In this document: piece by piece, positions 43,501 to 55,500 of the stretch
How positions within the stretch are numbered: the stretch's first letter is position 1
Layout of the letters: each line of letters begins with the position of its first letter
Assembly: GCF_011397635.1 (NCBI RefSeq)
Contig: NC_064772.1
Coordinates: 16,879,035 to 16,943,034 of the forward strand
Origin: Epinephelus fuscoguttatus
Taxonomy: Eukaryota > Chordata > Actinopteri > Perciformes > Serranidae
Direction of reading: 5' to 3'
DNA: 64,000 bases
Notes under the pieces: generated by a model
Seen by the model: the letters and a program-made list of their open reading frames with translations, nothing else
Databases searched by the model: none
Told to the model about the DNA's origin: nothing
Program-made: the position numbers and the translations under genes

Positions 43501-46500
43501 AAATATGGCAGAGTGCATTTTGCTCTTGACTTAATATTAATCTAATGGCAGAGATTTGTGTTTTGCTTCTAAAAACTCGCAATTATCTTGTATTATTAAG
43601 TTGCACATTCACATAGTGTATTATCACTTGAAAATTAGTGTGTTTTTGTTACCTTTAATAGAGCTGTTTCTGTCTACTTAAAGGATAACTTCGGTATTTT
43701 TCAACCTTGGCCCTATTTCCCCATGTGTATGTGTGCGTATGATTCATGGGTACAACTCGTTTTAAAACTGGTTCAGTATTGAGGGAGGCGGATGCAGCCG
43801 GCAGCCGCGAAACAAGCTTAAACGGTAACGGGGGCAAATGCGTCCTGTATAAGTTTGCGCATTAAAAGTGCTTTTCTTCGCCACTGACCGGTTCAGATCG
43901 CCAGTGCTATCTCTGTAAATAGCATACTAAACATTTCCCTTACCCTTCACTTCCTCTGGGCTGTGTGTGACGTCATCTCGCGAGAGCTTTGCTTGTTGCC
44001 GGAAGAAAACAGAGGAGCCATGCTGAGTGCCGCACAGAGTGGCGCTGGTTGTCCCGGAGTACAGTTGAGAGTTTTACTGCATCGGTACCATGGCTGCATA
44101 TTTACCCAATTTCGAGAATCGGATGAGCTCTTTATTACGATGGCCGCCCATACTTATTTGAGCTAGAGTATACGGACGAGGAGCTCCTACAAATTGAAAA
44201 GCCGACGAGGATAGAGAGATAGAGGGCCAACGAGCAGACGAGGGTGAAGCAGCGGCTGCACGAACATGGACTGGTGGTGCTCCTGTGGTTGCTGTGACTC
44301 CATGCCCACAGAGGAAGAATGTCTGTGTTGCAACGAGTGGGACCTGTTGCCCAATATTCATGGTCTCGATGTGTCCTGGGATGATACAGAAACTACCAAA
44401 TGCTGTGTAACTACATTAGAGGATTCCCCCCCTTCTGATCAACAGGGCAGTGCTGGATACCTTTTTTCATGTGCCCAAAATAAATTGGAGGAGGCGGCCA
44501 AAACCACAGGGACCAAATGGTCAACTATCCATCAAGTAAGTATAACTAATATGTCTTTATGCATGTAATACTGATACCTAGAATTGTCTCCGAGACGCAC
44601 ATTTACTGCAAGCAAAGCTCTTGCGAGATGATGCCAGAGACCCAGAGGAAGTGAAGGGTAAGGGAAACGTTTAGTATGCTATTTACAGAGATAGCACTGG
44701 CGATCTGAACCGGTCAGTGGCGAAAAAAGCACTTTTAATGTGCAAACTTATACGGGACGCATTTGCCCCCATATCTACCGTTTTAGCTCGTTTCGCACCT
44801 GCCAGCTGCATCCGCCTCCCTCAATACTGAACCAGTTTTAAAACGAGTTGTACCTATGAATCATACTCACACATACACATGGGGAAATAGGGCCCAGGTT
44901 GAAAAATACTGAAGTTATCCTTTAAGGAGTGGGTCTTCATCCTCATGCTGCACTGCCATGTTTCTACAGTAGCACAGAATGGACAAACCAAACATTAGCT
45001 CTGCTTTCAGGTCAGCCACCGTTGTGAGCAGCCTCTCTGCAACGAGCCATACATCCATCCATTTTCAACCACTTATTCAAAGCCGGGTCACGGGGGCAGC
45101 AGGCTGAGCAAAATATTCCAGATGTCCCTCTCCCCAGCAACGCTTTCCAGCTCCTCCTGGGGGACCCCGTGGTGTTCCCAGGCCAGATGAGATATGTAAT
45201 CTCTCCAGTGTGTTCTGGGTCTGCCCTGGGGCCTCCTACTGGTTTGCCTGGAACACCTCTAATGGGAGGCCCCGAGGAGGCATCCTAATCAGATGCCCAG
45301 ACCACCTCAACTGACCCTTTTCGACGTGAAGGAGCAGTGGCTCTACTCTGAGCTCCCTCCGGTATCCGAGCTCCTTACACTATCTCTAAAAGTCTGAGCC
45401 CAGTCACCCTACGGAGGAAACTCATTTCGGCTGCTTGTATCTGCAATCTCATTTTTTCAGTCGCTACCCAGAGCTCATGACCATAGGTGAGGGTTGGGAT
45501 GCAGAAGAACTAGTAAATTGAAAAGCTTTGCCTTCCAGCTCAGCTCCTTCTTCACCATGACGTTCTGGCACAGTGCCCGCATCACTGCAGAAGCCGCACC
45601 AAACTGTCGATCCATCTTACGCTCCATTTTACCCTCACAACAAGACGAGGTTTCATCATAGTAGTATTTACTGAGGCTTCTCTTACTTCATTTTGAGAGA
45701 CACTGTCAGGTACTCCCTGCATCTTCACATGAAGCAGCTCCAAAGTTTTTTTTGATGACATCTTAAACTGGAGTCTTCACTCAATATGTTTCAAACATCT
45801 GAAACGACTTGGTTCCCCAACAAATATTGACAAACCTCAAGGGAATAAAATGTAATTATATTCCATGTTGTATTTCCACTTTTACATTTTAATTCTCACT
45901 TTTTAAAAAACATGCCGTTGCGTTTATGTTTATGGTGGGGCTACTGTCGACTCTCATTAAACAGTCATTACCTGAGCCTGTTATTATGGACATAAACAGA
46001 GAAAATGACAGACCACTGCCTCATCTCCCATCATATGGTGATCAGCGCTGAACTGAATGTAATGCACCGCTGCATTCCCGAAAACCACAGCTGGGACGGA
46101 CCCTGGAGTTTATCAACAAATCAACCCTGCTTGCTGAGGGGCACAACAAGGAGACAACAGGCCCCAACTCTCCTGCTCCAAGAGGAAAAAGCTGCACATA
46201 AAAGGCATACCAGCAGCATACCACGGTACGGCCACATGTTCAATCACCAGCTTGTCCCCTCACCCCGGGGAGGAGGGTCGTTTAGTATAAAAGTCTGCCT
46301 GTTAAACACGACATGTGGAGAGGGACCGGTGTGTGACTATAAAACAGCACGGGGGTGAGTCTGCGTCTATGCACGTGTGCATGTGTCGCTGCTTATATAA
46401 AGCGAGGTATGTAAGTAGTCTTTGATGGGACGGATTCAAAACTGATTTCAGACCAAGTGCCACAAGGGTAAAAGAGGCAACACGGGATGTATGAACATAT

Positions 46501-52500: not shown

Positions 52501-55500
52501 TGCCAGAAGTCAGACGCCAAATATAGCCAATGGGTTCCGAGAATGTATTATGAGTAACTTGTGTGTAGATTTAGGCACAAAAAACATTTGCTATGGTCAT
52601 GGAACTATTTCTGAACGGGCCTACAAAAAGATGCAAAGGAACCGCAAAGAGACGGAAATAACCACAATAAGGGGCATAACACCCACAAAGAGACAAAATG
52701 ACCAAAAAAGACACTAAATTACCTCAAAAAGAAGCAGAACGACTATGACGAGATGCAAATCCACAAAATAATGCACAGTGATTACAAAAAGATACAAAAC
52801 GATGACACAAAAAGAGATTAAACAATTGTAAAGTCTGCGTGTCTGGCTCTTATGTAGGAGAGGTTGGGAGGGGCATTGTCTTATAATCCAATCCTGGTTG
52901 TGGTTCATGTTTTGTCTTAAAATACCCAGTTCTGGGGCACAATCTCAACTGAAAAAAAAAAGAAAAAGCAATGTCTCTGTAAAAAACATTCGCTTTTTGT
53001 GCCACTATCCCTGCTGGAAAAATAGCCACAAGTCACAAAAAACAGGTTTGGTACCTAAAAAGCCGCTGAAAACACAGCACAGGTTTGGTTGTTTGTTGGT
53101 CTCAGACAGTGGTCAGCAGCTTTGCAGGTGTCTAAGAATGTATTCGAAGAATGTTAAGTGTTGCTTTAAATTGCTGCTTCACAGGGGCAAAGTAAGTATT
53201 CACACCTCAAGGCCATAAAATGTGTCAGTTTATGTGTGCACAGCAGCTCACCTGTCTTCCCAAGATTGCCGTTCGTCAGCACCTGGAGGTCTCTGGCCAC
53301 ATTAGAGACGCGGTTCTGGAGGCTCTGACAAGTTCCCTTCAGTTCTCCAATATCTCTGGAATGAGCTCCAACAGTGCCGTTCAGCTGGTTGACAAAAGTC
53401 CACAACCCAGTGACATGTTTATTCAGACCGTCTTGGATCCTCTGGAGGCTATCGGAGACAGGATCCAGCTTGCTGCATAAACTCTCCACACTAACGACGC
53501 GGCTGTCCATGTGTGCAATCTCCTTCCCGACATCTTCTGTTTGTTCCCTGCAGCGGTCGACCTCAGCTTTTACCTCCCTGCCCAGCTCATCCAGACGGTT
53601 CCTCAGCTCTTGATCCTGAGTCCTGTGGAGCCCCTGAGGGTCCTTGGCCTCCTGCTCAGCCCCTGTTTTAACATGACCCCAGGTGTCATTGAGAATCGGA
53701 TACACCTGAGACTGCTGGTGGACTACATCTGATAGCGAGTCCTCCAACCTGCCCACACGCCCTTTCAGGAAGCTCAACTCACCATGTACATTCTCAATAG
53801 TGGAGCTGTAGTTGAGGAGCTGCTCCTTTATGTTTCCTAAGTCATTTATCTGGGCGTTTACACGAGTCTCTACATCATCTACAGCAGCTCTGCAACACTG
53901 GTCTTTTTGAATGTTTTCTGCAGCACCACTACCAGATGAGGAGTTTGTGCTTGTATCTACCAACAGGTTGGAAAGTCTGTTTTCAATGGAGGCCAGCTTG
54001 TCCTCCAGAGTCTCCCTCAGGTCTTTGATGGACTCTGCCTGTTCTTTCTTTAGCTTCTCCTCCACAAAGAGGCACTGGGCCGCTACACTGTTCCCAGATG
54101 AGTTCAGACAGGTTTCAAAGTTCTCCACAAGGCGGGTGTGTTCCTTTCCTTGGTCAACCAGCTTGGTCTTCAGGTCCTGGATTTCATTGCGGAGGTCAGT
54201 TTCCTTTGAGTCCATAAGCTCGGCCAGGCTGAGGTAGTTGTCTTGTTGTCCCTCACACTGCTCCAGAATTGACGTGATTTTATAATCGCACGAGTTCTTC
54301 ATGTCTGCTATTTTGATGTCCATGCCCTGCATTAACTCCTCTCTCAGAGCGCGGATCTTCTCGTCCAGGTAGGCACGCAGGTCTGTATGACTGGCTTTGG
54401 GGGCGGGAGGGGGTGTGGACAGCTGGTTCTGGACAGCCTCCATTAACAGATTAATTTGTCCGTCATGATGGCTGACACGGCCGAGCAGGTCCTCCAGGGT
54501 GTTGCTCTTGGACTCCAGTTCGTCTGTGACCTGGTTGATCTTGTTCATGACATCGTCCATCTGCGCTGTCTCATGCCCAAAAGAGAAGTCCTGCACCTGA
54601 ATGGTGTGGGCCTCCGCGCCTCTCGCACTGGCGGGCTGTGCGTAGTTATTCAGCAGCGTGACCAGCATTTTACTGGCGTCCTCTTGGAAATCCAGCCTCA
54701 GATTGGAGGACATGTCCGTCATTCTTGCCTGCATGTCGAAGACCATCTGGGATAGCCGCTGCACCTCCTCCTCCAGGTGTTGTGAACTTTGAGATCCTCC
54801 ATGACCCCCCAGTGGCCTGTGGCCTGTCTGACCTCCAAACTGCCCCTCCCCTCCCCAGGGATGGCTCCTCTGGTTCTCTGTTCGCTGCTCTGGAGCTACA
54901 GCGAGAAATAACAGAGGGAGAGTTGGGAATATGAATGCTGTTTTTCTGACATTTTTCAAGCTGTTTGTTTGATTTTATTTCACATATTTTCATGCTCGAT
55001 TTCCTTATTATAATCATGTCTTTCACCTTGTGGGACTGGAATATGTCCAGAGGCGGAGGGAGCATGAGGCATACGCTCTACTTGCAGCAGCTTTAGGTCT
55101 TTCACCTCCAGACAGTCGTGGCCCTGATACCCCGGGCAGCACCTCCACTCCAGCTCTGTGACAGTCTTGTATGCAATCTTATACATGGGCCTAAAGTGTG
55201 TCCGATATCTGGAAGCATTTCATACACAATGACATGAACACATATTAAAAAACCACAGATGCTGTACAATGGTATGTATTATAGTATAAGTAATTATACT
55301 GCTTACTGGAAGCAAAGTATAAGGCTTTGCGCAACTCTCCCTCTCAGGAATACAATGTAAACGTCACAGGACAATAAAATGTGTTTGTTGACGATGAAAA
55401 CAAGATAAACAATGGTCACATTTGCATTTAATTAATCACACAGTTGGCAGGGAGCCACTAAGACTTTGCACCACTTCCACTCATGAGGATACTGCTGATC

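Follow-up and report, generated by a model that had tools for sequence, protein, structure and literature searches.

Why should a short element bounded by TTAA and by long inverted repeats carry what resembles the cysteine-rich tail of the P2X7 receptor, and what kind of element is it? The question is raised by positions 43678-44925 of the window, that is, the whole 64,000-nucleotide stretch of Epinephelus fuscoguttatus DNA analysed here (G000:C21:16879035-16943034), where a decayed reading frame with a WCxCGxC...CCxE pattern occupies the centre of such an element. The initial annotation of this locus had proposed a mobile element packaging the P2X7 C-terminal domain, captured or spread by a piggyBac-type transposase. 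Based on the element's termini, its recurrence in the genome and the identity of its coding remnant, we conclude that it is very probably a decayed copy of a repeated non-autonomous Kolobok transposon of the KolX-bearing Kol0 lineage, and that it probably arose by internal deletion of a larger, two-gene Kolobok.

Architecture and genomic copies of the element

The arms of the window copy are 92% identical as inverted repeats over approximately 318 nt, are separated by 613 bp and end in TTAA on both sides (Table 1), in agreement with the initial description. The centre encodes the WCxCGxC...CCxE block and the 13-residue peptide reported earlier, spread over three frames as stretches of 10, 13 and 24 residues, and the decay described before is seen here as frame-shifting indels and stops. 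Where the frame is open, it stops at the TAA inside the GTAAGT donor unless spliced. A single-strand fold of the element merely restates the inverted arms.

Table 1. Features of the TTAA-bounded element, in window coordinates
Feature	Position	Strand	Basis or remark
Left TTAA target-site copy	43678..43681		Read directly from the window sequence
Left arm, terminal inverted repeat, about 318 nt including TTAA	43678..43995	+	Outer 42 bp similar to second-family arms
Leader from arm to start codon, 94 nt	43996..44089	+	First 89 nt common to THAP-carrying sisters
Decayed KolX exon 1, ballast-type cysteine domain	about 44090..44539	+	ATG at 44090, ends at splice donor; window copy with frame shifts and stops
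GTAAGT splice donor, 3' end of exon 1	44536..44541	+	Homologous donor, intron and in-frame exon 2 in L060
Putative intron 1 remnant, about 67 nt, donor to right arm	44542..44608	+	Window sequence and comparison with L060
Right arm, inverted copy of left arm	44609..44925	-	Homology length 318 in the window copy
Right TTAA target-site copy	44922..44925		Window sequence; alignment of copies

A search of one genome (1.05 Gb in 26 contigs), in which all match counts are lower bounds, gave at least 40 scored matches out of 2117 first-look candidates for the left arm (91-100% identity) and at least 40 out of 418 for the centre (90-100% identity). Thirty-one copies were aligned over the centre (L005 and L009-L038, L009 being the window copy); they were selected on similarity in this region, so that intact frames are favoured and the centre seems less diverged than the arms. 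The KolX frame is open in 13 of these 31 KolX-type copies, and nine open copies that were aligned are 87-92% identical to the first of them. Open copies mostly read through a 35-residue stretch and a 24-residue stretch to NGQLSIK. TTAA is present at both ends in 22 of the 22 copies aligning to both extreme ends, a count biased by the query itself ending in TTAA, and the other nine copies have one end lost or altered. Because arm and centre matches recur and open frames are retained, the element is not a chance arrangement.

Elsewhere in the window, a 602-aa open frame on the minus strand (53169-54974) had weak coiled-coil-like Pfam matches below the cut-offs and is perhaps a host exon.

The coding remnant and its relation to P2RX7_C

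KolX of the Kol0 lineage has been described as similar to residues 476-595 of P2X7, and P2X7 is considered to have originated by fusion with a KolX, the homology between KolX and the P2X7 ballast domain having been published in 2022 (PMC9587614). Judging from its match to the ballast domain and from this published account, we identify the window peptide as the product of exon 1 of KolX, which Kol0 Kolobok transposons encode as an accessory protein. In an alignment of six exon-1 sequences, cysteines C67, C69, C72, C81, C83, C84 and C109 are invariant, in line with the seven or eight conserved cysteines of a ballast or Zn-cysteine domain; the PSC cysteine, which belongs to exon 2, is absent from the element.

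The initial annotation had made the association of arms and domain depend on, among other things, a match to the P2RX7_C family. The 106-aa frame of the window copy gave no match in Pfam at E values up to 10. Exon 1 of three open relatives scored 16, 17.4 and 17.4 bits against P2RX7_C (PF20478), and exon 1 of a second family described below scored 22.2 bits, all over the first cysteine block only and below the gathering cut-off of 23.5 bits. A match above the cut-off was obtained with a relative, L060 (C2:1700190-1700840), which is 68% identical over query residues 68-158 and has the same donor followed by an intron of approximately 180 bp and an in-frame exon 2 containing ...RLVAYR...LPSC...YTRFK. 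Exon 2 of L060 scored 33.8 bits (E 4e-8) over positions 145-192 of P2RX7_C, and its exon 1 scored 14.4 bits, under the cut-off. The expected link to the P2RX7_C family is thus found in exon 2 of a relative and not in the window copy itself, and the weak scores of exon 1 are partly explained by the missing exon-2 part. In the PDB, L060 matched four P2X7 sequences alone, at weak E values of 0.26-0.75, and searches with exon-1 sequences or their profile gave nothing relevant, the one profile match being to an unrelated chain (E 3.4). An AlphaFold model of exon 1 had a mean pLDDT of 47.8 and was not used.

The genomic positions of exon 1 and exon 2 were compared for 124 of the 150 KolX exon-1 matches listed (155 found). 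The 26 matches left aside, the window copy among them, are fragments of up to 89 aa at 70-93% identity. Exon 2 was represented by 72 of 148 PF20478 matches, picked by eye as reaching the exon-2 part and including the P2RX7 gene. By position, exon 2 lies within 6 kb of none of the 61 exon-1 matches of at least 70% identity and of 8 of the 63 matches below 70%. On account of the former count, we consider the element to carry KolX exon 1 without exon 2.

At least 148 matches to PF20478 are present in the genome (150 of 228 candidates scored). The match at C6:43142617-43143069 probably represents the host P2RX7 gene, with 216 bits as compared to 110 bits for the next PF20478 match. We also observed matches that extend over both exon parts without interruption, several of them without stops, at C1:50717888-50718388, C9:44312748-44313131, C1:48624001-48624540 and other positions of G000; these could represent other Kolobok families, retrocopies or nanor-like host genes.

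A second family is represented by a TTAA-bounded unit of 1.3 kb on contig C13 (L059:1209-2515), with 270-nt arms that are 96% complementary and an intact KolX exon 1 of 143 codons ending at GTAAGT. Its centre had at least 43 matches at 87-100% identity, with 40 of 95 candidates scored. The outer 42 bp or so are the only part of the arms clearly common to both families (76-81% likeness). No further frame of at least 75 aa was found on the coding strand of this unit, which is too short to house a transposase.

Sister elements carrying a THAP exon

The arms of the window element are shared with a second type of element. Among 40 scored arm loci, 28 were fetched (L001-L008 and L039-L058), of which 24 contain a whole or partial THAP exon, three contain KolX exon 1 (the window copy, L005 and L041) and one, L047, contains neither in the 2 kb beside its single arm. 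The 12 unfetched loci comprise, by position, three KolX matches, three THAP matches and six unclassified loci; the arm locus C8:42441763, which adjoins a known KolX match, was passed over. The THAP domain was identified by Pfam in two copies (E 2.8e-12 and 1.5e-13), and was called in the other arm loci by tblastn with one Pfam-confirmed copy. The THAP-type elements are approximately 1.0 kb long (L002, L003, L039, L043, L046, L052, L053, L055, L056, L058 and 14 others), and their frame is open in 12 of 24 copies. Arms lacking the P2X7-like domain, which the initial annotation regarded as a sign of accidental association, do therefore exist and form the majority of the fetched loci. We nevertheless do not regard this as a sign of chance association, since a Kol0 Kolobok has two genes and these would be expected to yield THAP and KolX.

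Genome-wide, at least 150 THAP matches were scored of 1074 candidates. Among these is a rather uniform subgroup that matches residues 9-99 (at 95-96% identity) or 7-99 only, often with frames of 100 aa. In one copy of this subgroup, L061 (G000:C12:42634082-42634201), which was read over 120 bases, the upstream part differs and the first THAP cysteines are absent.

A comparison of ten THAP-type copies with the window copy indicated a leader common to both types over its first 89 nt, with divergence just before the start codon. Homology of the right arm to the left end was compared in 24 of 31 KolX-type and 16 of 24 THAP-type copies. In the KolX type it extends over 333-335 nt in 21 of 24 copies, 318 nt in the window copy and one other, and 321 nt in one; in the THAP type it extends over 316 nt in 11 of 16 copies and is shorter in five. 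Based on these different endpoints, we propose that the two types arose through independent internal deletions. Their parent would have been a two-gene Kolobok with a terminal repeat of at least 407 nt that included the leader. The THAP transposase gene would have started directly behind one copy of this repeat and the KolX gene behind the opposite copy, and the repeat probably also held the promoter of both genes. Separate internal deletions would have split this parent into KolX-type and THAP-type derivatives, the former by joining one end, the 5' leader and KolX exon 1 to the opposite, inverted end. Alternatively, two distinct elements that had the left end in common could have exchanged sequence, which would account for the shared leader without a single two-gene parent. 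A positional search of the one genome with the 150 THAP matches, most KolX matches and most exon-2 matches recovered no autonomous parent, and none of the 150 scored THAP matches lies within 25 kb of the KolX matches compared.

It is conceivable, if unlikely, that one promoter and leader within long terminal repeats served two converging genes, and that this Kolobok broke into complementary families carrying KolX exon 1 and the THAP exon, both of which may still make short proteins. If true, the genome would contain a transposon system that is split and regulates itself, and would keep ballast and THAP exons available for further fusions of the kind proposed for the birth of P2X7. In a literature search short of a full survey or Repbase, we found no description of two element families that have the same long ends but differ in their first exon.

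Superfamily, selection and alternative readings

Use of TTAA is common to Kolobok and piggyBac transposons and hence not diagnostic. The superfamilies differ in their ends. A piggyBac transposon carries a CC-type terminal motif, which is not seen here, as AGG directly follows TTAA. Kolobok transposons generate TTAA duplications as piggyBac elements do, but have 5'-RR and YY-3' ends (PMC9587614), and the termini TTAA|AGG...CCT|TTAA conform to this pattern. The T2-MITE family combines TTAA with a terminal AGGRR motif, and THAP is a usual part of Kolobok transposases (PMC6004289); the terminus of our element, AGGAT, agrees with this motif in AGG and the first R. Of the KolX accessory protein that distinguishes Kol0, exon 1 alone is present. 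Kolobok transposases are of the DDD/E type with THAP and a C/DxxH signature; no DDE catalytic region was found, the element itself being non-autonomous with THAP located in sister elements. Mobilisation of the element would depend on a Kolobok transposase encoded by other elements, which would bind at the termini, cut the element out and reinsert it at a TTAA site.

That a piggyBac-type element captured the C-terminal domain of P2X7, as first proposed, is very improbable. The TTAA target sites suit this reading, and the AG/CT termini and the presence in sister elements of THAP, a usual domain of Kolobok transposases, argue against it. The part retained is an N-terminal exon rather than a C-terminal one, and the piggyBac proteins discussed in PMC9587614 lack most of the conserved cysteines, as opposed to the seven invariant ones here. 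There is no need to invoke capture, given that the domain corresponds to the transposon's own, published KolX gene, of which exon 1 alone was kept; packaging of a P2X7 tail domain in a mobile element, the broader claim of the initial annotation, stands and had already been explained in print (PMC9587614). We also considered a nanor-like ballast gene or pseudogene lying between repeats by chance, since stand-alone ballast genes exist in fish (PMC7016195). We ruled this out as next to impossible because many contigs contain the whole unit with its arms, and copies in which both ends survive have TTAA there.

A further alternative is that selection maintains KolX exon 1 and the THAP exon as cargo, encoding short proteins that, by analogy with the KP derivative of the P element, would be expressed from the terminal promoter and regulate transposition in trans. 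The common leader and start codon before both cargoes and the proportion of open frames in both types are in favour of it, and small derivatives of P elements often encode repressors (PMC7776569). Counts of nonsynonymous (N) and synonymous (S) changes, made with CpG sites excluded, bear on this reading. In the THAP type, shared changes lean synonymous (N 6, S 8 versus 9.4 and 4.2 expected; one-sided p 0.037, uncorrected for several tests), a signal that amounts to 14 changes in one of several tests. Private THAP changes are neutral (N 43, S 16 versus 43.6 and 16.5 expected; ratio 1.01), and the non-CpG divergence of the THAP exon, at 1.7%, is just slightly under the 2.3% of arm plus leader. 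In the KolX type, neither shared changes (N 24, S 11 versus 23.9 and 10.7 expected; ratio 0.97) nor private changes (N 97, S 20 versus 87.3 and 28.3 expected; ratio 1.57, two-sided p 0.067) indicate constraint, and codon periodicity is absent within the family. We therefore dismissed selected KolX cargo within the family, and regard the joint KolX and THAP version of this reading as quite unlikely. Between families, comparison of four first-family copies with L059 by two methods gave dN of 0.27-0.31 and dS of 1.0-1.9, and thus dN/dS of 0.16-0.31 at a dS near saturation. Taken together, constraint between families and neutral drift within a family suggest that constraint was exerted chiefly along the branches that led to the two families. 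In the non-autonomous Kolobok elements proposed here, the KolX exon looks like a passenger, probably carried passively in short elements.

Relation to known systems

As a non-autonomous Kolobok in which a KolX exon is left over, the element is ordinary in kind but informative in form. One genome here displays the proposed raw material of the P2X7 tail, namely ballast exons that each bring a start codon and a splice donor and are dispersed over TTAA sites, with at least 418 first-look candidates for the first family alone. Exon capture by neighbouring genes thereby becomes a concrete and countable process. Our results also suggest that transposon-borne KolX exons may account for some of the gene models that carry a P2X7 name in fish.

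With the Kol0 Kolobok transposons described in PMC9587614, the element shares TTAA, RR/YY termini, the ballast cysteine set of KolX and, in its sisters, THAP; it differs in the lack of a transposase and in retaining only exon 1 of KolX. The T2-MITE elements of Xenopus (PMC6004289) are similarly non-autonomous, with TTAA, an AGG terminus and presumed mobilisation by Kolobok, whereas a coding exon is present in the element described here. The WCxCGxC...CCxE cysteine block is common to the P2X7 C-terminal ballast and nanor proteins (PMC7016195); unlike these, our element is mobile and decayed and has neither a receptor part nor the PSC-motif exon 2. Deletion derivatives of the Drosophila P element such as KP are also short and non-autonomous and encode a small protein, and a truncated THAP-bearing P-element product represses transposition (PMC7776569). 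They belong to another superfamily, however, and a repressor role for the exons described here would be by analogy only.
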